Shown here piece by piece: positions 1 through 32,606 of a stretch of 33,051 bases of DNA. Both the position numbers and the translations under genes were made by a program. The DNA lies in the NCBI GenBank assembly GCA_029245245.1, contig JAQWPT010000038.1, positions 1 through 33,051 on the forward strand, in the 5' to 3' direction. Source of the DNA: Phycisphaerales bacterium. Its GTDB lineage: Bacteria; Planctomycetota; Phycisphaerae; Phycisphaerales; SM1A02. Position 1 is the stretch's first letter. Every line of letters begins with the position of its first letter. Under the pieces are notes generated by a model, which was not told the origin of the DNA, did not search any database, and saw nothing but the letters and a program-made list of their open reading frames with translations.

Positions 1-105
1 ATCCGACGTGGGAACCACGATGGTCCCGAAGACGTCAACGGTGATGGACAGGTCGACAGGGACGACATGAACCTGATCCAGGACAACTACGGTGAGTGCC
101 CCTGA
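1..105 (+). CDS. C-terminal end of a dockerin-tailed protein (partial)
   Basis: Only the last 34 codons lie in the window, ending in TGA at 103-105. They encode the second half of a paired EF-hand tail, with the calcium-loop pattern DVNGDGQVDRDD and the ending YGECP. The stretch matches the end of the next gene (1661-1765) except for one silent change at base 93 (GGT against GGC). It is therefore the tail of a related upstream gene, probably also a secreted beta-helix protein, although its main domain is outside the window. Confidence 0.85.
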   Translation: MRRGNHDGPEDVNGDGQVDRDDMNLIQDNYGECP

Positions 106-130
106 GGGGCTCCAGACCAGTTCAAACCCC

Positions 131-166
131 CCGCCGGGCACCCTCAGGGGTGCCCGGCGGTCTTTC
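131..166 (+). terminator. Rho-independent terminator
   Basis: A perfect 13-bp stem (131-143 pairing with 148-160) with loop TCAG is followed by TCTTTC. It lies 26 bp after the stop codon of the partial upstream gene. Confidence 0.85.
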
Positions 167-184
167 AATTTACCTGTGAGAAAC

Positions 185-218
185 CCCGTCCAGCGACGCA
201 TTGGTGACGCAGGACGGG
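185..218 (+). promoter_or_regulatory. Leader hairpin upstream of the first beta-helix gene
   Basis: CCCGTCC (185-191) pairs with GGACGGG (212-218), and GCG (193-195) pairs with CGC (208-210), with a symmetric A/A mismatch at 192/211 and a 12-nt loop. It lies between the preceding terminator and the start codon at 266. The same structure recurs at 1845-1878. It could be a leader RNA structure or an operator; its conservation may simply reflect the recent repeat. Confidence 0.4.
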
Positions 219-265
219 CTCGCGATGCCGCGGCCCCCATGATGAACACCAACCGGAGAATGACG

Positions 266-1765: not shown

Positions 1766-1790
1766 GGGGCTCCAGACCAGTTCAAACCCC

Positions 1791-1826
1791 CCGCCGGGCA
1801 CCCTCAGGGGTGCCCGGCGGTCTTTC
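1791..1826 (+). terminator. Rho-independent terminator
   Basis: Same 13-bp perfect stem and TCAG loop as at 131-166 (1791-1803 with 1808-1820), then TCTTTC, 25 bp after the stop codon at 1765. Confidence 0.85.
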
Positions 1827-1844
1827 ATTTTCCCTGTGAGAAAC

Positions 1845-1878
1845 CCCGTCCAGCGACGCATTGGTGACGCAGGACGGG
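1845..1878 (+). promoter_or_regulatory. Leader hairpin upstream of the second beta-helix gene
   Basis: Identical in sequence and pairing to the hairpin at 185-218, including the A/A mismatch. It precedes the start codon at 1929. Confidence 0.4.
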
Positions 1879-1928
1879 CTCGCGATGCAGCGGGTCCCAT
1901 GATGAACCCCATCACAAGGAGCATGAAG

Positions 1929-3206
1929 ATGACCCGCACCAACACGACAACACGCCGAACTTCCCTCGCACTGCTTGCCCTGGGACTGGTGGCCGGACTG
2001 ACGCAGGCAACGTTGGCCCGGGACATCGTGGTCCCCGTTGATTTTCAGACCATTGGCGAAGCCATCGAAGCGGCCGAAGAACATGACACCATTCTCCTCA
2101 AGAGTGGTCGGTATGACGAAACCATCGATGTCACGAGGAAGAGCCTCCAGATCGTCGGAGGCGGCAACTCGCCCCTGGAGACCACGATTCTCTGCAATGA
2201 CCGACTTCATACCGTCAGCGCCTGGCGGAATGACTACAAGGTGAAGTTCCAGAACCTCACGTTTCTCAAGGAAGATCCAGAGGTCGATGGCTCGATCAGG
2301 ATCGACCGAACGCTCGTCGAGTTCAGGGAGTGCCATTTCATCGGGCTCGGCAACCGTGGAGGCTGTCACTGGGGACGCGGTGGCCGCTTCTCCAGCGGCG
2401 CGATGTACCTCGACAGGGCTGAAGTCGGTGTCATCGACTGCCACTTCATGGCCAATACCGCAGAGACCACCTGCGACCGACTGGCCATGGCCGGCGGTGG
2501 TGCCATCTACGCATCGCACACTGATCTCTGGGTAATTCGATCCACCTTCATGGGCAACGTGGTTCGAGCTGCTGCGACAGGTGGTCAACCTGTCAATGAA
2601 GATGATTACGCCGAAGGTGGTGCGATCAGTTGCTTCAGGGGATCGCTTCAGATCCAGGACAGCACATTCCGTGAAAATCGTGCATGGAATACCGGAAGGC
2701 AGCGCCAGTTCGGAACGGCCCATGGTGGAGCGATTCATGCCTGGGATTCATCCCCCCTGCTGATTGAGGGCACTACCTTTGCAGGCAATCATGCCCAGTG
2801 GGATGAGGAATCCGTGCGTGCAGGCGCCACCTGCAGTGGCGGCGCAGTCTGGATCCACGCCAACGGCCAGGTCCTGGCCGGCAACACCTTCATCAACAAC
2901 AGTTCAAGCCAGTTGGCTGGAGCGGTCTATTCCAGCGACAACAGCGTAGTCACCGACTCCAGGTTCGAGTGCAATCTTCCTGATCACCTCGACGGTTGGT
3001 ACCGGGAACAAAACAACCTGTTCCTCGAGTGCCCACCCCCCTGCCCGGCGGACCTCGACGGCAATGGCACCGTGGACTTCAGCGACTACATGCTCCTGGT
3101 CCAGAGCTGGGGCCTCGCCGACGGCAGCCCTGCCGATCTCAATGATGACGGGCTGGTGAACTACACGGACCTGCTCCTCATGCTCGACGCCTGGGGCGGC
3201 TGTTGA
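1929..3206 (+). CDS. Secreted right-handed beta-helix protein with dockerin-like tail
   Basis: 425 aa. A signal peptide (Arg-rich start, hydrophobic run LALLALGLVAGL, cleavage near TLA) is followed by a beta-helix cap (IGEAIEAAEEHDTILLKSG) typical of DUF1565/pectate-lyase-like proteins. Coils follow with GGAIYA, GGAISC and GGAIHA turns. The last 50 or so residues form paired EF-hand loops (DLDGNGTVDFSD, DLNDDGLVNYTD), each followed by a hydrophobic helix, ending AWGGC. The start at 1929 is chosen over 1923 because AAGGAG (1916-1921) then lies 7 nt upstream. It shares the fold with the preceding gene but differs in most of its sequence and has a different dockerin sequence. The role is probably extracellular glycan binding or cleavage; no active site was recognised. 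Confidence 0.85.
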   Translation: MTRTNTTTRRTSLALLALGLVAGLTQATLARDIVVPVDFQTIGEAIEAAEEHDTILLKSGRYDETIDVTRKSLQIVGGGNSPLETTILCNDRLHTVSAWRNDYKVKFQNLTFLKEDPEVDGSIRIDRTLVEFRECHFIGLGNRGGCHWGRGGRFSSGAMYLDRAEVGVIDCHFMANTAETTCDRLAMAGGGAIYASHTDLWVIRSTFMGNVVRAAATGGQPVNEDDYAEGGAISCFRGSLQIQDSTFRENRAWNTGRQRQFGTAHGGAIHAWDSSPLLIEGTTFAGNHAQWDEESVRAGATCSGGAVWIHANGQVLAGNTFINNSSSQLAGAVYSSDNSVVTDSRFECNLPDHLDGWYREQNNLFLECPPPCPADLDGNGTVDFSDYMLLVQSWGLADGSPADLNDDGLVNYTDLLLMLDAWGGC

Positions 3207-3232
3207 GTGACCATCTCGAGTTCAACCCCCCG

Positions 3233-3268
3233 CCGGGCACCCTCCAGGGGTGCCCGGTGTCTTTTTTT
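3233..3268 (+). terminator. Rho-independent terminator
   Basis: A 10-bp stem (3233-3242 with 3248-3257), loop TCCAG, then a run of seven T (3262-3268). It resembles the terminators at 131 and 1791 in sequence. Confidence 0.9.
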
Positions 3269-3361
3269 CGACCCTGGGTGTGAGAACCTCCAATCCAAAT
3301 CGCATACATGGTGAGGCCCCGCCTCGATTCTTTCACCGGATGAGAAGTTTGGAATACAACC

Positions 3362-5599
3362 ATGAGATATTTCCTCAAAAAAAGCCTTGTTACCGCGATT
3401 GCCGGACTTTGTCTGTCCGGCGGATTGCTCAATACCGAAACCGCAATGGCCAGCACCGACTCAAATGGTGTGACCATGCAACTTTTGAAGAACGACCCTG
3501 GCTACACGCACCTGAGCATCGAGTTTCCAACGCAGGTCACGCTGCAGGACATCATGATCGACGGCGAACCCTTCATGAAACTCGGTGACATCAAGGGTGA
3601 AGCGGTCTCGGAACACCGAGCCGGCGCCCCCCAGATGCCTGCTGCCGTACGGCGCCTTCGCATTCCCAACAAAAGCAGGATGCACGTTGAAGTTGCCAAC
3701 GCCGAATTCTACGAGATGCAGGGAATCAGGCTTGCCCCGTCCAAGGGGCCGATTTCACGCGAGTTGCTGCCCGAGCAGGTTCCCTACACCTTCGGTGATG
3801 AATACCAGAAGGACGAGTTCTGGCCGATGGACGTCGCCCAACTCGGCACTCCCTGGATCATGCGCGACCAGCGTGGCATCGACCTGAAGGTCACCCCCTT
3901 CCAGTACAACCCCGTGACCAAGGTCCTCCGTGTCTACACCAAGATCGAACTCATGGCCTACGCCGAGGGTGACGACGACCAGAACACTCTGCCCTTGGAT
4001 GCCCGGTCAAGCAACCGACTCGGTTGGCACGACATGTTCGCCGAAACATACCTGAACTGGGAACCGTACGACTTCCCGGTCATCGTTCCCTACAACCCGG
4101 AAATGCTCGTCATCACGCCCGAGAAGTGGGCTGATGAGATCCAGCCATTGGTCGACCATCACAACGACAACGGCCTCTGGACCGTCGTACGCCACATCGA
4201 GGACGTCGGCAACACTCCGGATGAGATCCGCGACTACATCGCCAATCGCTACCAATGGTGGGACATCAGTTACGTCCTCATTGTCGGTGACTACGACGAC
4301 GTCACGACCGATCTGGTCAACTACGCCTCCTCTACCGGCGGAACGGATCCGACCTATGGCTTCATCAGCGGCAACGACCACCAGCCCGAGGTGCTCGTGG
4401 GGCGATTCTCAGCCAATACCGACGCCGACGTGGTCACCCAGGTTGATCGCACCATCCAGTACGAGAACCAACTCGGAATCTTCAACTCCTGGCGCAACAA
4501 GGCGCTCGGCGTGGGATCCGACGACGGAAGCGGCGGCGATGACGGCGAACTCGATTGGGAGCACCTCGACGAGATCCGTGATGACCTGCTTGCCTCCCGA
4601 TTCACCGACGTGGCCCAAGTCTACGAACCGGCCGCATTGGGTGCCGATGTCACCAACGCGATTGAAGCCAACCTCGGTGTGATCAACTACACCGGACACG
4701 GCAGTTCGACTCGCTGGACCACTTCGGGATTTGACAACGATGATGTCGATGCCCTTGAGAACAGTTGGCGACTTCCCTGGATCATCTCCGTGGCCTGCGT
4801 CAACGGCCAGTTCCACAATGCCAGTGACTGCTTCGCGGAACGATGGCTTCGAGCCACCGACGATTCCGGGAAGCCCACTGGAGCCGTGGCAGCCTTCATG
4901 TCCACCGTGAACCAGCACTGGAACCCGCCAATGGAGGCCCAGGACGTCATCGGCGACGAGACCGCCGCCGGCACCATCAAGCGATTCGGCAACCTCTGCG
5001 CAGCCGGCACCGCCTCGATGGTCAGTGCCTACGGTGCATCCGGCAAGGAAATGATCGAGACCTGGACCATCTTTGGTGATCCGGCCTTGAACCTGAAGCC
5101 GCGTGACCTGAAGTTGATCCAGATCTTCTGGCCTGAATGGCACCTTTATCTCGGTGAGTTCCATGAACTGGATCCCAGGATCATGAAGTTGGCCAACGAT
5201 GGGGACTACCCCAAACTGGTCGAACTCGAATGGAACGTCGACTGGATCCACGTGGAGCCGTCCGTACTGGTGATCGAACCCGGTCAGGCCGTCGAAGTCT
5301 CCATCTTCGCGGACGTGACTCGTGCCGGACTGGGAGCCGGCGAGTACACCGCTTCCATCGTGGCCCGGGACATGACCGAGGACACCGCCGACCAGGGCAA
5401 GATCGTTCGCATCGATGTGATCGAACAGGAATGCCAGGGTGATCTCAACGGTGACGGCACCGTGAACATCACCGACCTGCTCGACGTGCTTTCCCAGTGG
5501 GGCACCTGCACCAGCGGATGCTCTGCCGACACCAACGGCGACGGGACCGTGGACATCACGGACCTGCTTACCGTGCTCGCGGGCTGGGGTTCCTGCTGA
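3362..5599 (+). CDS. Gingipain-like (C25 family) cysteine protease with dockerin-like tail
   Basis: 745 aa. A signal peptide (residues 1-30, ending AMA) is followed by a propeptide-like region to about residue 235, a caspase-fold C25 catalytic domain (about 240-570), an Ig-like segment, and paired EF-hand loops (DLNGDGTVNITD, DTNGDGTVDITD) ending GWGSC. The catalytic dyad is visible as His446 in YTGHGS and Cys479 in SVACVNG. Their spacing of 33 residues matches what I recall for gingipain RgpB (His211/Cys244). It should be an exported endopeptidase made as a zymogen. Substrate preference cannot be read from the sequence. No strong SD precedes the start (GGA at 3351-3353 only). It is a single-gene unit between two terminators. 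Confidence 0.9.
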   Translation: MRYFLKKSLVTAIAGLCLSGGLLNTETAMASTDSNGVTMQLLKNDPGYTHLSIEFPTQVTLQDIMIDGEPFMKLGDIKGEAVSEHRAGAPQMPAAVRRLRIPNKSRMHVEVANAEFYEMQGIRLAPSKGPISRELLPEQVPYTFGDEYQKDEFWPMDVAQLGTPWIMRDQRGIDLKVTPFQYNPVTKVLRVYTKIELMAYAEGDDDQNTLPLDARSSNRLGWHDMFAETYLNWEPYDFPVIVPYNPEMLVITPEKWADEIQPLVDHHNDNGLWTVVRHIEDVGNTPDEIRDYIANRYQWWDISYVLIVGDYDDVTTDLVNYASSTGGTDPTYGFISGNDHQPEVLVGRFSANTDADVVTQVDRTIQYENQLGIFNSWRNKALGVGSDDGSGGDDGELDWEHLDEIRDDLLASRFTDVAQVYEPAALGADVTNAIEANLGVINYTGHGSSTRWTTSGFDNDDVDALENSWRLPWIISVACVNGQFHNASDCFAERWLRATDDSGKPTGAVAAFMSTVNQHWNPPMEAQDVIGDETAAGTIKRFGNLCAAGTASMVSAYGASGKEMIETWTIFGDPALNLKPRDLKLIQIFWPEWHLYLGEFHELDPRIMKLANDGDYPKLVELEWNVDWIHVEPSVLVIEPGQAVEVSIFADVTRAGLGAGEYTASIVARDMTEDTADQGKIVRIDVIEQECQGDLNGDGTVNITDLLDVLSQWGTCTSGCSADTNGDGTVDITDLLTVLAGWGSC

Positions 5600-13400: not shown

Positions 13401-14786
13401 CTACGGGTACTTCCGCTCCTGCTCCCGCCCCTGCACTTCCATCGCATGCTTGAGTTTCTGGTTCTCCGCATAGCGGGCGGCATGCCCCCATCGCGGTGCC
13501 ACCAGTCCTGATTCCCAGTCGGCCAGCGACGTGCTCATCTCGGCGACCCGCTGCGGGTGCCTGGCTGCAAGGTCCGTGGACTCCGAGGGGTCGGTGGCAA
13601 GATTGAACAGCAGCGGTTCGCTGCCATCGACGCGAATCAACTTCCAATCACCCTCGCGCACCGCAGCCGCCACCGATCGACGCCAGAACAGCCGTTCGTG
13701 CGGTGGATCCACTTCGTCCCCGGCGAGGTACGGCAGCAGGTTCACTCCATCGAGGGAGGCACCGGGCGTGCCTCCGGCCGCGGCCACCGCGGTCGGCAGG
13801 ATGTCGAGCGTGCTCACGGGCCTGTCGTAGTCCACCCCCTCGGGAAGGTGCCCGGGCCAGGCCACGATGAAGGGAACGCGAATGCCCCCCTCCCACTTCG
13901 AGCCCTTCATTCCGCGGTAGACACCGTTGTCGGAGGCGTTGTTCGTCGCTCCCCCGTTGTCGTTGACGAACATGATCAACGTCTCGTCGGACAGGCCCAT
14001 CGACGACAGCGTGTCGAGGACCTGGCCGACCGCTCGATCGAGCGAGGCGGTCATCGCCGCGAGCTTTCTCCGTCGCAGGGGCGTAACATCCGCGAAATTC
14101 TCCAGGTCCTGTTCCTTGGCATGCATGGGGGTGTGCACGGCGGTGAAGGACAGGTACAGAAGGAACGGATCGGCACCGTTACGCATGATGAAGGCAGATG
14201 CTTCGTCGGCCAGGAGATCCGTAAAGTAGGTTCCGGGAATCTCGTGCACGGGCTCGGACTGGCGCATCACGCCCTTGCCATGGCGGGGTATCTCGTCGTA
14301 GTACCAGAAACTGCGGGAACCCGAGAGGCAGCCGACGTACTCGTCGAACCCACGGGAGAGCGGCTGGTACGGTTCCGCAACACCAAGATGCCACTTTCCC
14401 AACGCCCCGGTGCGATACCCGAGACCACGCAGAAGATCCGCGATGGTCTGCTCGTCCAGGGGCAGGCCGTCGGTGGCGTACTGGGTCGTGCCGGCAAGCA
14501 GATTCATCTCGTGCCCGAATCGCTGCTGGTACCGGCCGGTCATCAGTCCCGCCCGGGAAGGGCTGCACACCGAAGCCGACACGTAGCCGTTGGTGCAGAC
14601 GACGCCCTCGGCGGCGAGGCGATCGATGTTCGGTGTCGGAATTTCGGTGCACCCGGTGAACCCGAAGTCGGCGTACCCGGCATCGTCGGTGATGATCACG
14701 ATGATGTTGGGTTGTTCCTCCGGGGCCTCGGCCACCGCCCCGGTCGTCATGAGCAGCAACAGCAGAATGGGCAACGCCTGGTGCAT
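13401..14786 (-). CDS. Secreted sulfatase (type I, formylglycine-dependent)
   Basis: 461 aa, about the usual length for the family. A signal peptide (MHQALPILLLLLMTTGAVAEA) is followed by the metal site ITDDAGYADFG (Asp34-Asp35), the activation motif CSPSR (Cys74, to be oxidised to formylglycine) and the downstream conserved ALGKWHLG (Lys131, His133). The C-terminal metal pair lies in MFVNDNGG. It hydrolyses a sulfate ester, probably on an extracellular glycan or aryl compound; the subfamily was not determined. The longer frame starts within the terminator of the upstream lipoprotein gene, so the ATG at 14786 is used. No SD is present, but TACCAT lies 6 nt upstream. Confidence 0.92.
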   Translation of the reverse strand: MHQALPILLLLLMTTGAVAEAPEEQPNIIVIITDDAGYADFGFTGCTEIPTPNIDRLAAEGVVCTNGYVSASVCSPSRAGLMTGRYQQRFGHEMNLLAGTTQYATDGLPLDEQTIADLLRGLGYRTGALGKWHLGVAEPYQPLSRGFDEYVGCLSGSRSFWYYDEIPRHGKGVMRQSEPVHEIPGTYFTDLLADEASAFIMRNGADPFLLYLSFTAVHTPMHAKEQDLENFADVTPLRRRKLAAMTASLDRAVGQVLDTLSSMGLSDETLIMFVNDNGGATNNASDNGVYRGMKGSKWEGGIRVPFIVAWPGHLPEGVDYDRPVSTLDILPTAVAAAGGTPGASLDGVNLLPYLAGDEVDPPHERLFWRRSVAAAVREGDWKLIRVDGSEPLLFNLATDPSESTDLAARHPQRVAEMSTSLADWESGLVAPRWGHAARYAENQKLKHAMEVQGREQERKYP

Positions 14787-14792
14787 GGCGAC

Positions 14793-14798
14793 ATGGTA
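14793..14798 (-). promoter_or_regulatory. Possible -10 box (TACCAT) of a leaderless promoter
   Basis: On the minus strand, TACCAT ends 6 nt before the sulfatase ATG (14786). No SD precedes that start and a terminator lies just upstream, so transcription must begin close to the ATG. The same hexamer and spacing occur before the monooxygenase at 5699. Confidence 0.35.
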
Positions 14799-14808
14799 GC
14801 CCATGGAG

Positions 14809-14849
14809 AAAAACGGCATGGGCCCCGGCAGCGGTGCCGAGGCCCATGC
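14809..14849 (-). terminator. Rho-independent terminator of the SYLF lipoprotein gene
   Basis: On the minus strand, GCATGGGCC (14849-14841) pairs with GGCCCATGC (14824-14816), with an inner GGCA/TGCC stem, followed by CG and five T (14813-14809). It separates the lipoprotein gene from the sulfatase. Confidence 0.85.
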
Positions 14850-15535: not shown

Positions 15536-17995
15536 ATGATTCAGACTCCCATTCATGCCATGACCTGCACCGCCATGCTGCTGTGCCTGGGCGGCACTGC
15601 CATCGGAGCACCCCAACCGAACATCGTCTTCGTCCACGTGGACGACCTTGGATGGCAAGACACCTCGGTCCCCATGCACGAAACGGTCACCGAACTCAAC
15701 GAGCGATACCGCACACCATCCATGCAGCGACTGGCCGACTCGGGCGCCGTCCTTACCAGCAATTACGCCGCCGCTCCCGTGTGCACCCCAAGCCGCACCA
15801 GCCTCATGACCGGACAGGCTCCCGCCCGGACCCACATCACCTACTGGACACTGCACCGGGATCAGGACACGTCCCGGGCGCACCCTCACCTCCAGGCACC
15901 GCACTGGAACATGAATGGACTGCACGAAGAGGATGTCACCCTGCCGCTGCTGCTGCGCCGCGCGGGATACCGAACCATTCATGTCGGCAAGGCCCACCTG
16001 GGCGCCCACGACACCAGTGGAGCCGACCCGACACGTCTCGGGTTCGACGTCAACATCGCCGGCCACGCCTCGGGAGCACCGGGCTCCTACCTGGGAATCC
16101 ATCGCTTCATGAACACGAAGAACCCGCAGCGATTCGAACCCACCAGCGTCTGGGACGTGCCCGGGCTCGAGGACTGGCATGACCAGGACATCTACCTCAC
16201 CGAGGTCCTGACCGAGGAAGCCCTTGGAGAACTGGACCGTGCCCACAAGGACGGGACCCCGTTCTTCCTGCACTTCGCTCCCTACGCGGTACACACCCCG
16301 ATCATGCCCAACGAGCAGTACGCAGAGCACTACGAGTCCCTGCCGGCCCGCGAAGCGGCCTACGCCACCATGATCGAATCCGTCGATACCGCCGTCGGAG
16401 CGATCCTGGACCGACTCGCCGAGCACGGCCTCCAGGAGCACACCATCGTGGTGGTGTCGTCGGACAACGGTGGGCTTTCGGCCCATGCCCGTGACGGCAA
16501 ACCCCACGTGCACAATGCCCCCCTGCGCAGCGGCAAGGGCTCGGCCTACGAGGGCGGAACCCGCGTGCCGGGCATCGTCCGCTGGCCCGGTGTCACTCGC
16601 CCCGGCAGCCGCATCGACACCCCGGTGGTCACCCACGACTGGTTTCCAACCCTGCTGGATGCCGCCGGCGCCACCTCGCTGATCTCCCCCCTCCACCACG
16701 TCGACGGACAAGACCTGCACGCCACCCTCGCGGGTGAATCCACGGACCTGGAAACCGAACGCGTGATTCTCTGGCACCAACCACATCAGTGGGGCGCCCG
16801 CGGACCCGGCATCCTTCCCTACACCGCAATCCGCCAGGGCGACTGGAAACTGATCTTTCGACACGCCGATGGCGGACTGGAACTCTACGACCTGTCTTCA
16901 GATCTCGGCGAACGAAACGAGTTGTCGACCCTCAAGCCGGAACGAACCCGTGCCATGGCGGCACTGCTCTCTGAAACAGCCCGTGCGCACGGTGCCCAGC
17001 CCTCGATCGACACGCGTACGGGACGGGCGGTTCCCTGGCCCGATGAAATGGATGATCGCCATCCCGCGGCACCCGACGGCATGACCTGGATACCCGGCGG
17101 CACCTTCACCATGGGATCGAGCAACGGCTACCGGGAGGAACGACCGGAGCACCAGGTCACCCTCGACGGATTCTTCATGGATACCAACGAGGTCACGAAC
17201 GCCCAGTTTGCACGCTTCATCGAGGACACCGGCTACGTGACGATCGCAGAACGCATTCCCGAGGCCGATGACTACCCCGATGCCCCGCCCGAACTGCTGG
17301 TCCCGGCCTCGGCCGTGTTCCACGCTCCTTCATCCATCTCCAACCGGCTGGACATTGGACAATGGTGGTCACTCGTACCCGATGCCGATTGGCGCCACCC
17401 GGAGGGTCCGGGCTCCTCGATCGCGAATCGCATGGACCATCCCGTGGTCCACGTCGCCTGGGACGATGCACAGGCCTACGCGGACTGGGCTGGCAAGCAG
17501 TTGCCCACCGAGGCCCAGTGGGAATACGCCGCCCGCGGCGGACTCGAGGCCCGCCCGTTCAACTGGGGGGACGAGTACGTGCCCGGCGGAACCTGGATGG
17601 CCAATACCTGGCAGGGTCGATTCCCAGTGCAGGATGATGAGCTGGACGGGCACGGTGGTTCCGCCCCCGTCGGTTCCTTCCCTTCCAATGGCTGGGGACT
17701 CCATGACATGGCCGGCAACGCCTGGGAGTGGTGCGCAGACTGGTACTCGGAAGACTGGTACGAGCGGTCCGGCCGACGAAACCCCACCGGACCGGCAATG
17801 GACACCATCGTCGACAACGAGTCACCGGCCGGACCGCGCCGAATCACGCGAGGCGGTTCGTTCCTGTGTTCACCCGAGTTCTGCATCCGCTACCGACCGG
17901 CGGCCCGCATGCCCGTGACTCCCGACAGCAGCCTGTCCCACACCGGGTTCCGCTGCGTCCGTCCGGCGAGTCAGGATCCGTCGGGAACGCCGTAG
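15536..17995 (+). CDS. Sulfatase fused to a formylglycine-generating enzyme (FGE) domain
   Basis: 819 aa, secreted (signal peptide ends near IGA, residue 24). Residues 27-490 or so are a type I sulfatase: metal site VHVDDLGW (Asp36-Asp37), activation motif CTPSR (Cys83), and SSDNGG later. Residues 514-812 or so are a complete FGE/SUMF1 domain: MTWIPGGTFTMGS at its start, PVVHVAWDDAQAYADWAGK, LPTEAQWEYAARGG, GNAWEWCADWY, and the active-site segment GGSFLCSPEFCIRYR with Cys778 and Cys783. The C-x4-C spacing equals that of human FGE (Cys336/Cys341, from memory), the copper-binding pair. One chain thus carries both the target cysteine and the enzyme that converts such a cysteine to formylglycine. 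It probably activates itself and perhaps the neighbouring sulfatases. Its 3' end overlaps the convergent sulfatase by 25 bp. Confidence 0.93.
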   Translation: MIQTPIHAMTCTAMLLCLGGTAIGAPQPNIVFVHVDDLGWQDTSVPMHETVTELNERYRTPSMQRLADSGAVLTSNYAAAPVCTPSRTSLMTGQAPARTHITYWTLHRDQDTSRAHPHLQAPHWNMNGLHEEDVTLPLLLRRAGYRTIHVGKAHLGAHDTSGADPTRLGFDVNIAGHASGAPGSYLGIHRFMNTKNPQRFEPTSVWDVPGLEDWHDQDIYLTEVLTEEALGELDRAHKDGTPFFLHFAPYAVHTPIMPNEQYAEHYESLPAREAAYATMIESVDTAVGAILDRLAEHGLQEHTIVVVSSDNGGLSAHARDGKPHVHNAPLRSGKGSAYEGGTRVPGIVRWPGVTRPGSRIDTPVVTHDWFPTLLDAAGATSLISPLHHVDGQDLHATLAGESTDLETERVILWHQPHQWGARGPGILPYTAIRQGDWKLIFRHADGGLELYDLSSDLGERNELSTLKPERTRAMAALLSETARAHGAQPSIDTRTGRAVPWPDEMDDRHPAAPDGMTWIPGGTFTMGSSNGYREERPEHQVTLDGFFMDTNEVTNAQFARFIEDTGYVTIAERIPEADDYPDAPPELLVPASAVFHAPSSISNRLDIGQWWSLVPDADWRHPEGPGSSIANRMDHPVVHVAWDDAQAYADWAGKQLPTEAQWEYAARGGLEARPFNWGDEYVPGGTWMANTWQGRFPVQDDELDGHGGSAPVGSFPSNGWGLHDMAGNAWEWCADWYSEDWYERSGRRNPTGPAMDTIVDNESPAGPRRITRGGSFLCSPEFCIRYRPAARMPVTPDSSLSHTGFRCVRPASQDPSGTP

Positions 17996-19506
17996 ACCAC
18001 CTGGAGTCGACGCAGCTCCGCTTCCAACTGCCGGCGTGTTTCAGCGTGTTCGGCAACCTTGGCGAGGTTGTTCACCTCGTGGGGATCCTCGTGCATGTCG
18101 AAGAGTTCCCACTCTCCCCGACCGGGGTACTCGATGAGTTTCCAGCGGTCGGTCCGCACACCCCGGTGCGGCTGGACGTTGTGGATCCCCTCCTCGAAGT
18201 ATTCGTAATAGATGGAGTCGCGCCATGGTCCCTGATTCCGGCCCTCCAGGAGCGGCCGCAGGCTGGCCCCCTGCATGCGATCGGGCGACTCGACTCCAGC
18301 GGCATCGAGAAAGGTCTGGGCGAGGTCGAGATTCTGCACGAGGGCATCTTCGGTACTGCCAGCAGCAACCGTTCCCGGCCAACGAACCAGCAATGGCGTC
18401 CGCAATGACGGCTCGTACATGAACCGCTTGTCGTACCAACCGTGTTCACCAAGGAAAAACCCCTGGTCGGAGCTGTAGACCACGATGGTATTTTCAGCCA
18501 GGCCCTGCTCGTCGAGCCAGTCCAGCAGTCGACCGACGTTGTCGTCGACCGATGCGATGCAGCGAAGGTAGTTCTTGATGTAGCGTTGGTACTTCCATCG
18601 CACCAGGTCCCGGCCCTGGAGATTCGCTTCCCGGAATGCGTCGTTGCGATCACGGAACGCGGCATCCCAGGCCGCCAACTGCTCCGGTGTCAGTCGTTCC
18701 CGCATTCCCTTGATCCACCGGTCGGGTCCGGCCAGTTCCGCACGTTCCTGCTCCGTGGGTTCGATCTTCAGGTCGTAGTGCAGGTACATGTGCCGATCAA
18801 TCTCCATCTCCTGATCGTGCGCAGCGCTGGCCCGGGTGGCGTAGTCATCGAAGAGCGTCGGTGGTTCTGGAATATCCACATCGGCGTAGAGATCGAGGTG
18901 ATCCGGACCGGGCATCCAACTCCGATGCGGCGCCTTGTGCTGGCACATCAGGAGAAACGGCTGCTCACGGTCCCATTCACCCTCGAGCCAGTTGATGGAT
19001 CGATCGGTCACCAGGTCGGTCACGTACCCCTGGTCACGCACGGTGCCCTCGGGGGTGATGAAGTCCGGATTGTAGTAGTCACCCTGCCCCGGGAGCACCG
19101 CCCAGTGATCGAACCCCGTGGGATCCGTCTTCAGATGCCACTTGCCTATGAGCGCGGTCTCGTAGCCCGACTGCTGAAGGAGTTGGGGAAAGGTCGGCTG
19201 GCTCCCGTCGAACACATCACCGTTGTCCATCAGCCCGTTGACATGGCTGTGGGTGCCCGTGAGCACGACGGCACGGCACGGCGCACAGATGCCGTTGGTG
19301 CAGAACGCGTTGTCGAAGCGCATGCCTCCGGCTGCGATGCGATCCATGTGAGGTGTCTGGTTGATCACGGATCCGTAACAACCAACCGCCGCGGCGGAAT
19401 GATCGTCGGTGTAGATGAAAAGAATGTTTGGACGATCTCCCCGGGGCCCATCCGGTTCAGCAGTGGCAAGAGGCATCGACACGGTAATCAGCAGGATCAA
19501 ATGCAT
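17971..19506 (-). CDS. Secreted sulfatase with CAPCR activation motif
   Basis: 511 aa. A short signal peptide (MHLILLITVSMPLATA) precedes the metal site FIYTDDHSA (Asp34-Asp35), the motif CAPCR (Cys74) followed by AVVLTGTHSHVNG, LIGKWHLKTDPTGFDHW, and the later YSSDQGFFLGEHGWYDKRF. The CxPxR consensus is kept, but the usual Ser is a second Cys. The GEHGWYDK segment and length suggest the glycan (heparan/GlcNAc-6-sulfate or choline-sulfate-like) branch; the substrate is unknown. The long upstream frame is spurious; the ATG at 19506 starts directly with the signal peptide. It is transcribed divergently from the next sulfatase, with only 24 bp between start codons. Confidence 0.92.
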   Translation of the reverse strand: MHLILLITVSMPLATAEPDGPRGDRPNILFIYTDDHSAAAVGCYGSVINQTPHMDRIAAGGMRFDNAFCTNGICAPCRAVVLTGTHSHVNGLMDNGDVFDGSQPTFPQLLQQSGYETALIGKWHLKTDPTGFDHWAVLPGQGDYYNPDFITPEGTVRDQGYVTDLVTDRSINWLEGEWDREQPFLLMCQHKAPHRSWMPGPDHLDLYADVDIPEPPTLFDDYATRASAAHDQEMEIDRHMYLHYDLKIEPTEQERAELAGPDRWIKGMRERLTPEQLAAWDAAFRDRNDAFREANLQGRDLVRWKYQRYIKNYLRCIASVDDNVGRLLDWLDEQGLAENTIVVYSSDQGFFLGEHGWYDKRFMYEPSLRTPLLVRWPGTVAAGSTEDALVQNLDLAQTFLDAAGVESPDRMQGASLRPLLEGRNQGPWRDSIYYEYFEEGIHNVQPHRGVRTDRWKLIEYPGRGEWELFDMHEDPHEVNNLAKVAEHAETRRQLEAELRRLQVVYGVPDGS

Positions 19507-19513
19507 GGTTCCC

Positions 19514-19525
19514 GGAGTATACTCC
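19514..19525. promoter_or_regulatory. Palindromic bidirectional -10 element between two sulfatase genes
   Basis: GGAGTATACTCC is a perfect 12-bp palindrome. It contains TATACT on the plus strand (19518-19523), 7 nt before the ATG at 19531, and TATACT on the minus strand (19521-19516), 9 nt before the ATG at 19506. The two start codons are 24 bp apart, so both mRNAs would be leaderless or nearly so. It could also be an operator. The GGAG ends are 13-15 nt from the starts, too far for a normal SD. Confidence 0.55.
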
Positions 19526-19530
19526 TGCCC

Positions 19531-20961
19531 ATGCTGACAACCTCCATCCTCCTCTTCATTGCCAGCCTGGCGCAGCCCGGATCCGCCGCAGGCGAGGCTC
19601 CTCCGAACATCGTGATCATCTACACCGACGACCAGGGATGGTTTGATGTCGGTGCAAACGGGGGACGGCACGTTTCGACCCCCAACATCGATCGCATGGC
19701 CGAGCAGGGACGGCGATTCACGGATTTCTACACCGCCCAGCCGGTGTGCTCCGCCTCGCGGACCGCACTGCTCACGGGCTGCTATCCAAATCGCCTGGGC
19801 ATCACCGGGGCCCTCGGGCCGTGGGCCAACCATGGCATCCACGATGATGAGACCACCCTCGGCGAACTTTGCCGGGACCGTGGCTACGCCACCGCCGCGT
19901 ACGGCAAATGGCACCTCGGACACCACGCGCAGTTCCTCCCGCCGAACCATGGATTCGACGATTACTTCGGAATCCCCTACTCCAACGACATGTGGCCGAT
20001 GCACCCCACTGCTCGCAAGAGCACGTATCCACCACTGCCGCTGATCGAAGACGCTGAAACAATCGAGGAGCAGCCGGACCAGCGACGCTTCACGACGGAG
20101 TTCACCGAGCGAGCCGTGCAGTTCATGCGTGAGCACGCCGATGAACCGTTCCTCGTGTACCTCGCCCACCCCATGCCGCACGTACCGCTGTTCGTCAACG
20201 AAGAACGTGACGGCGCCACCGGCATGGGACTCTACGCCGACGTCATCGGCGAGATCGACTGGTCGGTCGGGCAGGTCCTGGACACCCTGCACGAACTGGA
20301 CCTCGATGAACGCACGCTCGTGATCTTCGCCTCCGACAACGGTCCATGGCTGAGCTACGGCAACCACGGAGGGCAGACCGGCCCGTACCGGGAGGGCAAG
20401 GGCACGACATTCGAGGGGGGCGTCCGCGTCCCCTGCGTCATGTGGATGCCCGGGCGGATTCCCGCCGGCACCGTCTGCCGTGAACCGATGATGACCATCG
20501 ACGTCCTGCCGACCGTCGCCGAACTCATCGATGCTCCCCTGCCGTCACGCCCCATCGACGGCCGCAGCGCAACGGGACTCGTGTTCGACGAGCCTGGAGC
20601 TCGATCACCACAGGAGTACTACCTCTTCTACTACCACGCAAATGACCTGGAGGCGATCCGAAGCGGACGCTGGAAACTTCATCTCCCCCATGGATACCGA
20701 AGCATGGGGAACCGGGAACCGGGCCGTGACGGCATTCCCGGCCAGTACAACTATGGAGTACGGATCGACATGGAACTCTACGATCTCGAGACGGACCCCG
20801 GTGAAACCACGGATGTCTCCGACCAGTACCCCGAGGTGATGGAACGCATGCTGGGCATTGCGGAAACGGCCCGGGCCGATCTTGGTGACACGCTCACCAA
20901 GCGGGAAGGGACCGGTCGAAGGCAACCGGGGCGACTGCCGAAGGAAGAGGATTCCCCGTGA
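19531..20961 (+). CDS. Secreted sulfatase with CSASR activation motif
   Basis: 476 aa. A signal peptide ends near SAAGEA; then come the metal site IIYTDDQGW (Asp33-Asp34), activation motif CSASR (Cys73, the C-x-A-x-R form), AYGKWHLGHHAQFLPPNHGFDDYFG, FASDNGPW, and the late GKGTTFEGGVRVP. The last segment and FYYHANDLEAIRSGRWKLH near the C-terminus resemble arylsulfatase A/GalNAc-sulfatase-like enzymes. The substrate is probably a sulfated glycan. The in-frame sequence upstream of 19531 is antisense to the divergent sulfatase and is not part of the protein. It overlaps the following acyltransferase gene by 4 bp (GTGA). Confidence 0.92.
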   Translation: MLTTSILLFIASLAQPGSAAGEAPPNIVIIYTDDQGWFDVGANGGRHVSTPNIDRMAEQGRRFTDFYTAQPVCSASRTALLTGCYPNRLGITGALGPWANHGIHDDETTLGELCRDRGYATAAYGKWHLGHHAQFLPPNHGFDDYFGIPYSNDMWPMHPTARKSTYPPLPLIEDAETIEEQPDQRRFTTEFTERAVQFMREHADEPFLVYLAHPMPHVPLFVNEERDGATGMGLYADVIGEIDWSVGQVLDTLHELDLDERTLVIFASDNGPWLSYGNHGGQTGPYREGKGTTFEGGVRVPCVMWMPGRIPAGTVCREPMMTIDVLPTVAELIDAPLPSRPIDGRSATGLVFDEPGARSPQEYYLFYYHANDLEAIRSGRWKLHLPHGYRSMGNREPGRDGIPGQYNYGVRIDMELYDLETDPGETTDVSDQYPEVMERMLGIAETARADLGDTLTKREGTGRRQPGRLPKEEDSP

Positions 20962-22256
20962 CCACCACCAATGAAGCGAGTGGCCGCCCACTGAGCTACT
21001 TCGAATCGACCATGCAACTTGCCACGGAGCGGTACTACTCCGCCACGATCTGCTGCTGGGCCATGGGGACCGGCCCCGTCGACATCGATCAGGTCCGCAG
21101 CGCACTGCAGGTCCTGCATGCCAGGCACCCGCTGCTTCGAGCTCGCATCGAGGGCGAACCGGGAACCTACCGCTTCCTGATCGATGTCCCCTTCGGGAAC
21201 ATCCCGGTGCACGAGATCACCCTCGCCGAGGGCGAGGACATCAACAGTGTCCTGGAACCATTGATGGATGAGCACTTCCCCTCCGGACAGCGCACCTGGG
21301 GAGCACGATTCGTTCGTTCCGGAACATCCGGACGATGGTGGCTGCTGCTGCAGACCCACCATGCAATCACGGATGGTCGATCGGCCTACTGCCTGCTCGA
21401 CCAGTGTGGACAACTGCTGGGAGCAATGGCCTCCGGCGACCCCATCGACCCTGCACCGCTGGAACTGCCCGAGCCCATCGAACACCAGATGGATCCACCG
21501 GGCACGCTGGAACACTGGAATCGCACCGGTGAGCGATGGAGTGATCGCATCGGAACAATCTCCCACTGGCCGGCCGATGGTGCCGCCGACTTCGAGGATC
21601 GCCATTGCCACAACACCTTCAGTGACCACGACCCCGACTTCAGTCGGCGACTGCTCGATCGCTGTCACGCCGCCGGCACGACCGTCCAGGGCGCCCTGGC
21701 ATCCGCCGTCGCCAGGGGCATCGCTGCATACCTCGACCACGCCATCGACATCGACACCTTCACCCCCGTGGACCTGCGTCGCTTCGCCGCCGTGGACATC
21801 GATCCCCACGAGATCGCCTGCAAGATCACCTGCCTGGATACCGGCTCGTTCAACATCTCCAGTGAAAGCGATCCCTGGGATGTCGCCCGAAACTACACCT
21901 CCGCGCTCAATCGCCAACTCGACGAGAAGCCCTACCCGCCTGCCGATTTCAGGAGCAAGGACGTCATCGCAGGGTCGACCGGGTTCCTCGGTACCGGAAA
22001 CCGCTTCGGGCATGGATTCTGCCTGACCAACACCGGCCGACTTCACATGGACGGGGACTATGGACCGATCCAGTTCGAACTGGTCGACGTCACCGCCACG
22101 GTCCGGTTCGGGGGCTTCCCGGTGATCCAGTCCGTCTACACGTTCCGGGACCGGCTTCGGTGTACCTACACGTGGCCCGAACCACTGCTGTCACGGCCCC
22201 ACGCCCTGGAACTCACCCGTGAGGTGGAATCACACCTGCAGTCCATGGTCGACTGA
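20958..22256 (+). CDS. Condensation-domain-like acyltransferase (stand-alone)
   Basis: 432 aa, cytoplasmic. Residues 134-140 read HHAITDG, the HHxxxDG catalytic motif of the chloramphenicol-acetyltransferase/condensation superfamily (PapA acyltransferases, alcohol O-acetyltransferases, NRPS condensation domains). [11 protein letters not shown] at residues 54-64 fits the usual N-terminal motif. The second motif DFGWG is not evident; DGDYGPIQF may be its remnant. It should transfer an acyl group from a thioester to an alcohol or amine. The GTG start is supported by the GTGA overlap with the sulfatase and the purine-rich GGAAGAGG upstream. No carrier protein or adenylation domain is nearby, so a CoA donor is more likely. 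Co-translation with a sulfatase is unexpected. Confidence 0.8.
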
Positions 22257-22368
22257 AAGTGGCCCAGCGTGGCCTTCGGGCCCGATCATGAACAAACGAT
22301 GGCCCACGTCGTATGGATGCATAGAATGTGAAGTGGACCATCCACGAGGATCCAACGGAAGTTTCACC

Positions 22369-23493
22369 ATGAAGACCATCCCGATCATCATCATCATCAC
22401 CATGCTTGTCGCCCTCGTCCCGTTGACGCTGATGGCCGACGACACCACGCCGGACGGTCCGGCCGCGACTACCGACTCCAGGAAGACGACCATGACCCAG
22501 CCGACCACGTCCGACAGTGGCCACGACATCACACCACTCACCGAGGACCAGGTGCGCGAGCTGGCCGCCAGACTCGATCCGGAGACCTTCCGAGTCACCC
22601 AGAAATCAGGGACGGAGCGTCCCTTCTGCGGCACCCTGCTGGACAACAAGAAGGACGGCACCTACGTCTGCACGGTCTGCAACCTGCCCCTGTTCTCCAG
22701 CCAGCACAAGTTCACCTCCGGGACGGGATGGCCGAGCTTCTACCAGGAATACGACCCGAAGCACGTCAAGCAGATCGAGGACGCCAGCCACGGCATGGTG
22801 CGGACCGAGATCGAGTGCACCCGCTGCGGGGCGCACCTCGGCCACGTGTTCAACGACGGGCCCGAACCCACCGGCATGCGCCACTGTCTGAACTCCGCAT
22901 CACTCCAGTTCGTCGAGGATGGCAAGGAACTTCCTTCCCTGCCGTTGCAACCCGGGTACCAGACTGCGTACTTCGCCGGCGGATGCTTCTGGGGCATCGA
23001 ACACTACTTCCAGCAGGGTCCCGGGGTCATTGAGGCCGTCAGCGGGTACATGCAGGGAGAAACCGAACGCCCGAACTACAAGGGCGTCTGCTCCGGCACC
23101 ACCGGACATGCCGAGGCGGTCAAGGTGGTCTTCGACCCGCAAGTCGTCTCCTACGAGACGCTGCTGCAGGCCTTCTTCCTGATGCACGATCCCACGCAGT
23201 TGAATCGACAGGGACCCGATCGGGGCACGCAGTACCGAAGCGGCATCTACGCCACCGACGACACGCAACTCGCCCAGGCACGTGCCTTCATCGAGGCCCT
23301 CGAAACATCAGGCACCTACCGCGGCCCCGTCGTGACGGAGGTCGAACTCGCGAACACCTTCTACCCGGCCGAGGACTACCACCAGGACTACATCGAGACG
23401 ACGGGCCGAAGTTGCCACGTCACGAACCCATGGCCGCGACTCAAGCAGGCCACTGGATCGGACAAGTCACCCTCGACTCCGGCCAAGCCCTGA
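22369..23493 (+). CDS. msrBA: Exported bifunctional methionine sulfoxide reductase (MsrB-MsrA fusion)
   Basis: 374 aa. A signal peptide with an unusual Ile run ([16 protein letters not shown]) exports it. Residues 55-185 or so are MsrB: zinc cysteines CTVC (101, 104) and CTRC (150, 153), GTGWPSF, and catalytic Cys173 in [11 protein letters not shown]. Residues 198-355 or so are MsrA: catalytic Cys206 in GGCFWG, YMQGE and GHAEAVKV. Together they reduce the R and S forms of methionine sulfoxide in envelope proteins. The order B-A with a signal peptide parallels periplasmic MsrAB-type repair enzymes, but no thioredoxin domain is fused. The start at 22369 is chosen because it begins the signal peptide. 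The 112-bp gap upstream has no clear promoter. Convergent with the FG-GAP gene, 1 bp apart. Confidence 0.93.
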
Positions 23494-30362: not shown

Positions 30363-32606
30363 ATGAATACACTCAAGCATTTTCTGCTCATCACGACCTT
30401 CATCATCGCGGCCGTACCGGCCCGGGCTGACCTTGAATGCACGTCATCTCGCGTGTACCACAAGGATTTCAGCCTCGAGAAGCTCGACGCCCTCATCACC
30501 CTCCTTCCACTGCTGGACCTTCGCCCCGCCGCCATCACCGCGATGGAATCGGACGACGGCCCCATCTTCCAGTTGGTCACGACCTGCGACGAGGAATACG
30601 ACTGGGTCTTTGAATCGGAGATGAGCTCCAGCGAATACCAGGCCTTCTTCGACGCCAACGCACTGCTGGGATACCGGCCGCTGATCGTCGAGGCGTACGG
30701 CACCTACCCGAACGAAACCTATCTCTCTGTCATGATCGATGACGGCGTATCTGCACGTGGTCGACACCGGACAACTATGGATGAATGGTTGGATGAACGG
30801 ACCGAGCTGCTCGGCCTCGGCTACCTGCCGACCTGCTTCTCCTCGTGCGGAAATTCGGACGACACCCGGTACGCCAGCGTCTGGACCAACCTGGGATCCG
30901 GGCCGTACATGCGAACACTCACAAATCTTTCCCCGGAGGATTTCAAGGACTACCAGGCCGACGAACGGCGGGGAGGCAGCCGACTGATCTCCGTCAGTGT
31001 CCACGGCACCGCCTCCAATCCCCGGGTGGGCGGCTTCTTCACTCGATCCATTCAACCCCAATGGTCGGTTCACGAGGATCTCGAATCGGTTGAACTGGTC
31101 GCTCTCGTTTCGGAACACGAAGCCAGCGGGTGGGAAGTGGATGTCGTCACCGCCTACGAGGACGGTTCGAGCATCCGGTACATCGCTGTCTTCAAGCGGG
31201 ATCCCTACCGGACCTTCCGGATCACCGGGACGACTGATCCGGGATTCGAATCTCTGGACGCGGCAATGCAAACCCACATGGAGAACAACCAGATCTCCCG
31301 AGGTGCACTCTCCGTCGTCGATACGCAGGGTCGGCTGGTCCTGGCACGTGGGTACACGTGGGATTCCACCGACACGGAGAACACCGATCCGACGAGCCTC
31401 TTCCGGATCGCCAGTGTCTCGAAGACCGTGACTGCCGCCGCAACGATGGCACTGGTCGAAGACGGCCTGCTGGGGAGCATTGACGATCCCGTTGCCGACC
31501 TGCTCGACGACTGGAACTGGTGCGCATGGGGATGCCCGGATTGCGCGGGCGGTTTCTGCCCCGATGCGAACTGGCCGAACATGACGACCCGGAACCTGCT
31601 CACTCATCATTCGGGATTCGTCAGCTGGTCGAGCGGGTCCTCCGGTGATGCGATGGCCGCCAACCGAACCATTCGCGATCACCTCAGCGGCCTGCCCGGT
31701 CATGATCCGGTCACCCTGCCGATCTCGATCGCCGACATCCACGAGTTCATGCGGACCCAGGGAGTGGATACTCCCCCGCAGAGCAGCTACGCCTATTCGA
31801 ACTACGGCTACTCCCTGCTGGGTCGAATCATCGAAGCCGCATCGGGTATTTCCTATGAAGACTACGTCCAGCAGCGCATTCTCGATCCACTCTGCATCGA
31901 TCGGATGCGGATCGGCACCTCGATGGGCGACGCCGAGAACGAGGTCGACTACCACGACTCGATGTACCAGTTGCGGCGAACGGTCATCGAGGAGGAGGAG
32001 GACTTGTGGGTCCATCGCTGCTACGGCGGCGCGAACATCCCCAACTACGACGCCAATGGCGGATGGATCGCATCGGCCGTGGACCTCGCGGCCTTCACCG
32101 CCGCCTTCCGGGACCCGGCGGACTCTCCCATTCTCACCGACCTCTCGATCAACGACATGTGGACGCTGCCGTCGTACGATTCGACCACCAGCTACGCCCT
32201 GGGGTGGAGCATCCGATCCAACTGGGCCTTCCATACCGGCTCGATCGCCGGGACCAGATCGTCCATCCAGCGCAACACGGACGGCTCGACCTACGCCGTG
32301 GTCTTCAATCGTCGCGTCCGTGATGCGACCGGATTCAGCAGCACCGACGACGACATACGTGCCCTGATCAACGGTCCGGCATGGTCCGCGATCACCTGGC
32401 CCGCGGTGGACTACTGGAACGACTACCTCTGCATCGAGCTGGTTTCCGCCGACATCAACTTCGACGGCAGCGTGGACGTGCTGGATCTCCTCGAAGTGAT
32501 CAACCAGTGGGGACCGTGCCCGTTGGTGTGTCCCGCCGACGTGAATGACGATGGTGCCGTGAACGTTCTGGACCTGCTCGCCATACTGGAGAGTTGGGGC
32601 CCCTGA
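30363..32606 (+). CDS. Secreted beta-lactamase-fold serine hydrolase with N-terminal extra domain and dockerin-like tail
   Basis: 747 aa. A signal peptide ends ARA (residue 22). Residues 23-285 form an extra region of three or four related segments of about 60 residues (each with a pattern like Y-x-S-V-W or Y-I-A-V-F near its end). Residues 295-680 are a class C beta-lactamase/PBP4-like domain: S351-V-S-K354, Tyr478-Ser-Asn480, and His624-Thr-Gly626. The N-terminal segments recall those of fungal polyglycine hydrolases, which also precede a beta-lactamase fold, but this is a memory-based comparison. The paired EF-hand tail (DINFDGSVDVLDLL, DVNDDGAVNVLDLL) ends SWGP without the final Cys. Four cysteines cluster at residues 387-399. 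It is likely an extracellular peptidase or esterase. GAGGAG is 16 nt from the ATG, so the start is less certain. Confidence 0.88.
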   Translation: MNTLKHFLLITTFIIAAVPARADLECTSSRVYHKDFSLEKLDALITLLPLLDLRPAAITAMESDDGPIFQLVTTCDEEYDWVFESEMSSSEYQAFFDANALLGYRPLIVEAYGTYPNETYLSVMIDDGVSARGRHRTTMDEWLDERTELLGLGYLPTCFSSCGNSDDTRYASVWTNLGSGPYMRTLTNLSPEDFKDYQADERRGGSRLISVSVHGTASNPRVGGFFTRSIQPQWSVHEDLESVELVALVSEHEASGWEVDVVTAYEDGSSIRYIAVFKRDPYRTFRITGTTDPGFESLDAAMQTHMENNQISRGALSVVDTQGRLVLARGYTWDSTDTENTDPTSLFRIASVSKTVTAAATMALVEDGLLGSIDDPVADLLDDWNWCAWGCPDCAGGFCPDANWPNMTTRNLLTHHSGFVSWSSGSSGDAMAANRTIRDHLSGLPGHDPVTLPISIADIHEFMRTQGVDTPPQSSYAYSNYGYSLLGRIIEAASGISYEDYVQQRILDPLCIDRMRIGTSMGDAENEVDYHDSMYQLRRTVIEEEEDLWVHRCYGGANIPNYDANGGWIASAVDLAAFTAAFRDPADSPILTDLSINDMWTLPSYDSTTSYALGWSIRSNWAFHTGSIAGTRSSIQRNTDGSTYAVVFNRRVRDATGFSSTDDDIRALINGPAWSAITWPAVDYWNDYLCIELVSADINFDGSVDVLDLLEVINQWGPCPLVCPADVNDDGAVNVLDLLAILESWGP

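Follow-up and report, generated by a model that had tools for sequence, protein, structure and literature searches.

The aerobic formylglycine-generating enzyme (FGE/SUMF1), as described from T. curvata, S. coelicolor and human, is a separate protein, usually studied as an enzyme that meets its sulfatases transiently, acting on an extended CxPxR segment before the sulfatase folds. The solved S1_16 carbohydrate sulfatases closest to the protein considered here, BT3796 (7oza), BT3057 (7oz9) and 9fo1, are likewise listed as sulfatases alone. Gene fusions that add a second domain to a sulfatase are described for the multi-domain sulfatases of marine Planctomycetes and Kiritimatiellales, with no FGE partner named in the available excerpts of the two papers concerned (PubMed Central (PMC) articles PMC4807772 and PMC6388578). 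In a 33,051-nucleotide stretch of DNA from a Phycisphaerales bacterium (contig JAQWPT010000038.1 of assembly GCA_029245245.1, the whole of which is called the window below), one gene encodes a sulfatase whose partner is an FGE, covalently attached at the C-terminal side. The one FGE that was found is thereby bound to a single sulfatase. It seems to us fairly likely that the product is an exported bifunctional chain, made up of an S1_16-type sulfatase and an active, copper-dependent FGE that would act on its own and on other unfolded sulfatases. Each enzyme on its own is known; as a covalent pair they are not described in the PMC literature searched, where titles and abstracts yielded no sulfatase-FGE single chain (subscription papers and the InterPro/Pfam architecture lists, which may contain this domain pair, lay outside that search).

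The frame at 15536-17995 (+) is open for 819 codons with zero internal stops, and a Pfam domain search finds in it a Sulfatase domain (PF00884, residues 28-379, E 1.6e-48) followed by an FGE-sulfatase domain (PF03781, residues 514-809, E 7.8e-80), which bears out an earlier note on this DNA that had read the two enzymes as one chain. Among the seven cysteines of the chain (11, 17, 83, 733, 778, 783 and 807), Cys83 does lie in a CTPSR motif, and Cys778 and Cys783 are where that note had put the FGE pair. The linker between the halves is almost nil; the two folds abut, since the structural alignments cover residues 25-505 for the sulfatase and begin at 509 for the FGE, running to 811. Frames of the same kind occur in eight other genomes, and we refer to genomes and loci by our own G and L numbers, G000 being the genome of the window. 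Group 1, the window type, consists of G000, G001 and G002 of the same genus and of G006 and G120 of another genus of the family, while group 2 (G046, G050, G060 and G122) has the halves in the same order with a different sulfatase (motif CAPTR) and a different FGE. An assembly or frame error that joined two neighbouring genes might be suspected in a draft genome of 38 contigs, all the more as sulfatase and FGE neighbours do occur, but the identical frame in five group-1 genomes and the analogous frame in the four of group 2 leave such an error with practically no probability. The frameshift or false join between the halves that the earlier note had feared is excluded because G001, G002, G006 and G120 share the continuous frame, and assembly error as the source of the fusion is ruled out by the open fused frame in all nine genomes.

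By nearest structure, the sulfatase half appears to be S1_16-like. Its best match is 7oza (BT3796_S1_16), with 385 bits by sequence and, for the predicted model, a Z-score of 54.3 and a root-mean-square deviation (rmsd) of 1.8 over 475 aligned residues; the named S1_16 entries 7oza, 7oz9 and 9fo1 are among the top structural matches, 6uss is also near, and 9fo1 was deposited as a kappa-carrageenan sulfatase. With these it has in common the whole fold and a C/S-x-P-x-R motif; what sets the fusion apart is the C-terminal FGE. CTPSR at Cys83 fits the type I sulfatase pattern C-x-[PA]-x-R, and all five group-1 chains have either CTPSR or CTPTR. HVDDLG, GKAHLG, VHTP and SDNGG, which we take to be the motifs that supply the metal-site Asp, Asn, His and Lys residues, are all present.

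The FGE half is nearest to actinobacterial and human FGE. It scores 272 bits against PF03781, 272 bits against 6s07 and 264 bits against human FGE (1y1e), and its predicted model aligns with T. curvata FGE (5nyy) over 271 residues at a Z-score of 36.2 and an rmsd of 2.0. Several other FGE entries are among its structural matches, although in one match list for the whole model this half accounts for 1 of the 50 rows. Identity to aerobic FGE is 43-53% in the structural alignments listed, and the whole fold is shared together with GGS-x2-C-x4-C, WQG-FP, GN-WEW and GFRC. The C-x4-C that follows GGS (Cys778 and Cys783) aligns with that of human and T. curvata FGE, and Ser775, the equivalent of human Ser333, is kept along with both cysteines in five of five group-1 chains. 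In an alignment of 134 FGEs, none of them near-identical (5 from group 1, 4 from group 2 and 125 others), the window chain retains 92 of the 96 columns that are conserved at 90% or more in the 125 others. Both halves are under similar purifying selection in group 1: across ten pairs the ratio of nonsynonymous to synonymous substitution rates (dN/dS) is 0.135-0.196 for the sulfatase and 0.117-0.210 for the FGE, rough values in view of a dS of 0.98-2.19, near saturation. These residues and columns suggest that the FGE half is probably active, though not a textbook FGE.

Read by eye, the N-terminus of the chain shows a hydrophobic stretch before the sulfatase fold, with a predicted helix at residues 7-22. 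It would fit a Sec signal peptide, and the fusion is probably exported, although in this member the stretch contains no Lys or Arg. A strongly hydrophobic 11-residue stretch also lies within the 80 residues before the FGE domain in 22 of the 25 free FGEs of the family that were tested (L056-L080), by a crude test that used open frames, not known starts. This suggests that FGE is exported generally in the family; if so, the fusion would unite two proteins that already meet outside the cytosol.

The genome of the window is a 2.69-Mb draft, 96.5% complete, in which PF03781 has two matches, the fusion (272 bits) and a protein on contig C6 (58 bits) without C-x4-C at its end; anSME (TIGR03942) has no match there, nor any match over the cut-off in the other eight fused genomes. 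In each of the nine fused genomes a single FGE match reaches E<=1e-50, a count for which at most 12 candidates per genome were scored (12 of 17 in G060, the rest of which PF03781 covered). The second-best PF03781 matches reach 60.4 bits in G001, 58.6 in G002 and 61.7 in G006. Read by eye, the second-tier FGE-like frames of group 2 (L206-L210) have no C-x4-C after GGS, GGG or GGN, this reading of weaker matches having covered those frames and the C6 protein of G000. PF00884 has seven matches in G000, all with a Cys motif: CSPSR, CTPSR, CAPCR, CSASR, CAPSR, CSPTR, and a second CAPSR in a frame cut off by the end of its contig. Three of these are the further sulfatases that the earlier note had seen near the fusion, and all three (CSPSR, CAPCR and CSASR) are real. 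The fused FGE is probably a general activator of the genome's sulfatases, because neither another canonical FGE nor an anSME was found in the genome, and seven of seven sulfatases carry the Cys motif; the service to other sulfatases that the earlier note had entertained is to that extent likely. Elsewhere in group 1, fragments included, PF00884 matches number 4 in G001, 4 in G002, 7 in G006 and 6 in G120.

Group 2 has a far smaller set of candidate clients. PF00884 has one match in G046, two in G050 (the second at 19.1 bits, under the cut-off), two in G122 (the second at 23.4 bits, rising to 28.1 and so above the cut-off of 25 when neighbouring matches are added) and two in G060, where the second reaches 65.7 bits and has the motif CSPSR. 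The second PF00884 frames of G050 and G122 have no C-x-[PA]-x-R motif, so that in G046, G050 and G122, three of the four group-2 genomes, no sulfatase other than the fused one was found to carry a formylglycine motif. Completeness is 80% for G046, 92% for G050, 88% for G122 and 96% for G060, and with values of 80-96% missed genes are possible.

A number of observations weigh against an active and exported FGE that serves the cell's sulfatases at large. According to passages of PMC4505483, prokaryotic FGE is placed in the cytosol, whereas the FGE half of the fusion is probably exported. Elsewhere the same paper lists Ser333, Cys336, His337, Tyr340 and Cys341 as residues whose mutation alters FGE activity, and two of these are replaced here. 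Position 782, which corresponds to human Tyr340, is Phe in four of the five group-1 chains, including that of the window, where all four group-2 chains and 114 of the 122 other FGEs with a letter at this position have Tyr and eight do not. Position 779, human His337, is Ser in the window chain and His in no group-1 chain; this loss weighs little, since His is found in only 31 of the 122 other FGEs and is absent from 91. When the earlier note called the FGE domain intact, it was right about both catalytic cysteines, but the word is slightly too strong given Phe782 and Ser779. In the predicted model of the window protein (mean predicted local distance difference test score, pLDDT, 82.7; 78.1 for that of the G050 protein) the FGE half is less confident than the sulfatase half, with ten-residue blocks of 55 and 46 at 671-690, and the blocks that hold the catalytic cysteines, 771-790, are of low confidence at 62 and 60. 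Three members of the family, G013, G019 and G023, have several PF00884 proteins (G010 and G020 have one match each) and no canonical FGE or anSME over the cut-off. Contigs may be missing from G013, G019 and G023, or they may use an unrecognised activation route, in which case such an activator could be present in G000 too, so that the fused FGE is not proven to be the sole one at work. Finally, free FGEs of the family rarely have a sulfatase close by: one is present within 1 kb at three of 29 loci, or two of 27 genes (L044 and L180 are the same gene, as are L165 and L198); the two are in G007 and G194. No same-strand precursor pair is seen in the family, because both of these neighbours are on the opposite strand. 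The G007 neighbour is related to the sulfatase half of group 1, scoring 420 bits.

Some of these points would also fit a different role, in which the FGE half is a non-catalytic accessory fold, for binding or structure, and the sulfatases are activated by something unrecognised. Proteins that use an FGE-like fold for something else are common (PorK/GldK, EgtB and PvdO are among the weak matches), the Tyr is replaced by Phe in most group-1 chains, and some relatives have sulfatases without a known activator. Against it, C-x4-C, Ser775 and all but four of the conserved columns are kept, and the FGE half is under purifying selection; group 2 retains the Tyr as well, and G000 would then be left with no recognised FGE or anSME. 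We consider this very unlikely and continue with a catalytic FGE half. As an observation in its own right, the stretch L200 5781-8827, from a family member without canonical FGE or anSME over the cut-off, holds two of its sulfatases, both with Cys motifs.

An FGE match at E<=1e-50 is present in 107 of the family's 181 genomes, exactly one in 106 of them, and the nine fusions are those found among these 107. For the remaining 98, either the frame lacks the length for a fusion, or it was read and has no sulfatase, or a contig end may cut it; every frame of at least 700 amino acids was read, and a fusion of both domains needs about 700. The two groups are far apart in sequence. Group-2 sulfatase halves score 106-125 bits against that of the window, compared with 719-840 for the other group-1 chains, and group-2 FGE halves are 47-50% identical to the window's. 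In a tree of the sulfatase half (62 rows) each group forms one clade and joining them is rejected, the log-likelihood falling by 297 with an approximately unbiased (AU) test p-value of 8e-7; in a tree of the FGE half (70 rows) each group is again one clade, with joining rejected more weakly (39.7 lower, p-AU 0.025). Both trees are quick ones with long branches elsewhere, and the groups had been set beforehand from similarity scores. A common origin of the two kinds of fusion is thus rejected by the AU tests on both halves, modestly for the FGE half, and the fusion arose at least twice among these relatives. Group-2 sulfatases group with free ones, for example with one that G000 encodes on contig C2, while the nearest free relatives of the group-1 sulfatase half belong to other Phycisphaerae and Planctomycetota (52-58% identity, L083-L090), with no FGE near them within the 3-14 kb stretches examined.

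Beyond the family, the 392 Planctomycetota genomes sampled include 99 with an FGE at E<=1e-60, and no sulfatase was present in the FGE frame in G293, G406, G353, G294, G218, G316, G036, G301, G541, G331, G526, G479 or G247. The order was sampled with 400 genomes, 168 of them with an FGE; among the matches listed, down to about E 1e-80, the long frames of G681, G744, G665 and G697, and that of G726, are not fusions. In phylum and order the frames examined were mainly those of about 500 amino acids or more, and the result applies to FGEs that no contig end cuts. One genome of the same order, G026, has 13 FGE-like PF03781 matches, several of them in long frames. Other phyla were sampled through a GTDB scan and plasmids alone. 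Among the best 80 of 583 confirmed GTDB loci, 72 hold an FGE. Two of the 72 are fusions, and their contigs are those already known from G001 and G120; of the rest, 15 have a sulfatase no further than 1 kb away and 55 have none.

How the two halves work together can be considered against this distribution. The FGE half, as the cell's only canonical FGE, would oxidise the motif cysteine of sulfatase chains in the periplasm before they fold, modifying the extended CxPxR segments as they emerge there; its clients would be its own sulfatase half, in the same unfolded chain or in a sister chain, and the genome's other Cys-type sulfatases. Export, catalytic activity, clients and the timing and order of folding are all points that we infer. 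Formylglycine modification is called cotranslational in the abstract of PMC12123546, and in vitro FGE can also convert tags that are accessible on proteins already folded, according to passages of PMC4505483. Cys83 should be buried once the sulfatase half has folded. The earlier note had suggested maturation in cis after export, for which nothing that was computed speaks, there being hardly any linker. Cis self-activation is not favoured, because the sulfatase is N-terminal and emerges first, although it is possible while the chain is unfolded; from sequence, cis and trans are indistinguishable.

A stricter form of the same idea is obligate cis action, each FGE half modifying Cys83 of its own unfolded sulfatase half with other sulfatases minor clients or none. 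Group 2 resembles a near-pure case of this, G046, G050 and G122 having no second formylglycine-motif sulfatase that was found; the FGE is single-copy at E<=1e-50, and a high local concentration would favour cis. It sits poorly with group 1, where several sulfatases (from four PF00884 matches in G001 and G002 to seven in G000 and G006, fragments included) have only this canonical FGE, and with the second, CSPSR-bearing sulfatase of G060; the domain order also suggests that the sulfatase half would be the first to clear the translocon, with the chance to fold before there is any FGE half. Obligate cis is therefore unlikely in our estimation. The broader proposal, that these are self-maturing sulfatases which make their own formylglycine within one chain after export, in two independent lineages, with the activator and essentially its only client one molecule in group 2, is a tentative one toward which we lean somewhat less than not. 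Group 2 is the better place to look for cis activation, because there is essentially no other client there. The two fusions of separate origin, whose sets of clients differ (many for group 1 and roughly one for group 2), amount to a natural system for the cis question, allowing one to ask whether modification is in cis, whether it follows export and whether it comes before or after folding. A possible use would be the single-gene production of active sulfatases, or of an aldehyde-tagging enzyme, in laboratory strains.

The chain might also be cut after export into a free sulfatase and a free FGE, leaving the fusion as a co-expression device only. In its favour are the short junction of about eight residues between the folds and the two-gene neighbours that do the same job elsewhere, but no cleavage site was seen (no tool-based search was made) and nine of nine fusions remain one open frame; this we regard as quite improbable, and the intact bifunctional chain as the better account. 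In Rhizobium, Azospirillum, Cupriavidus, Hymenobacter and haloarchaea the same two enzymes stand side by side, in varying order, as two proteins where the fusion is one chain. A sulfatase lies within 1 kb of the FGE at six of 18 order and phylum loci, and of 800 plasmid records, 60 were listed; 38 of these are annotated with a sulfatase next to a separate FGE-type gene, the rest being partly or not annotated. The five plasmids read closely (Bradyrhizobium, Sinorhizobium, Rhizobium ACO-34A, Caballeronia and Azospirillum) all have separate frames. In that of Bradyrhizobium sp. 195 (L224 1474-4095) an arylsulfatase is followed by an FGE, in the order of the fusion and in one frame, with only a stop codon plus one more codon between them; the precursor of such a fusion could have been arranged like this.

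Table 1. Coordinates of the fusion gene, its parts, the neighbouring sulfatase genes and the group-2 frames; positions are those of the window unless an L number is given.
Feature	Position	Strand	Basis
Sulfatase-FGE fusion gene, 819 amino acids	15536..17995	+	one open frame; Pfam domains; same single frame in 5 genomes
N-terminal hydrophobic segment, probable Sec signal peptide, residues 1-25	15536..15610	+	by-eye reading; predicted helix 7-22
Sulfatase half, residues 25-505, S1_16-like	15608..17050	+	PF00884, structural matches
Formylglycine motif CTPSR, Cys83	15782..15796	+	sequence reading
Short junction between both folds, about residues 506-513	17051..17074	+	alignment limits 505/509; Pfam FGE from 514
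FGE half, residues 514-809	17075..17962	+	PF03781, structural matches
Putative FGE copper site, Cys778 and Cys783 (C-x4-C), Phe782 for the usual Tyr	17867..17884	+	sequence, alignments
Neighbouring sulfatase, CSPSR, possible client	13401..14819	-	Pfam, motif
Neighbouring sulfatase frame, CAPCR, domain 18292-19431, tail-to-tail with the fusion gene, possible client	17971..20367	-	Pfam, motif
Neighbouring sulfatase frame, CSASR, domain 19603-20532, possible client	18442..20961	+	Pfam, motif
Group-2 fusion frames	L161 2109-4556; L162 3525-6047; L163 5935-8361; L164 5981-8503	-; +; -; -	

A divergent type of sulfatase, with the motif PECSPSR, is found at L217 1426-3531 and in L222 and L223, the tail of the L217 protein being dockerin-like by eye. 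Elsewhere in the window, a fused MsrB-MsrA methionine sulfoxide reductase (22219-23493, +) is encoded in a frame that overlaps the end of that for a PapA5-like condensation-domain acyltransferase (20958-22256, +). The stretches 92-5599 (+) and 30363-32606 (+) between them encode two repeat proteins with Beta_helix/Chlam_PMP matches, one with a dockerin match under the cut-off and one with a match over it, as well as a C25-type protease with a dockerin and a beta-lactamase-fold protein with BTRD1 and a dockerin.

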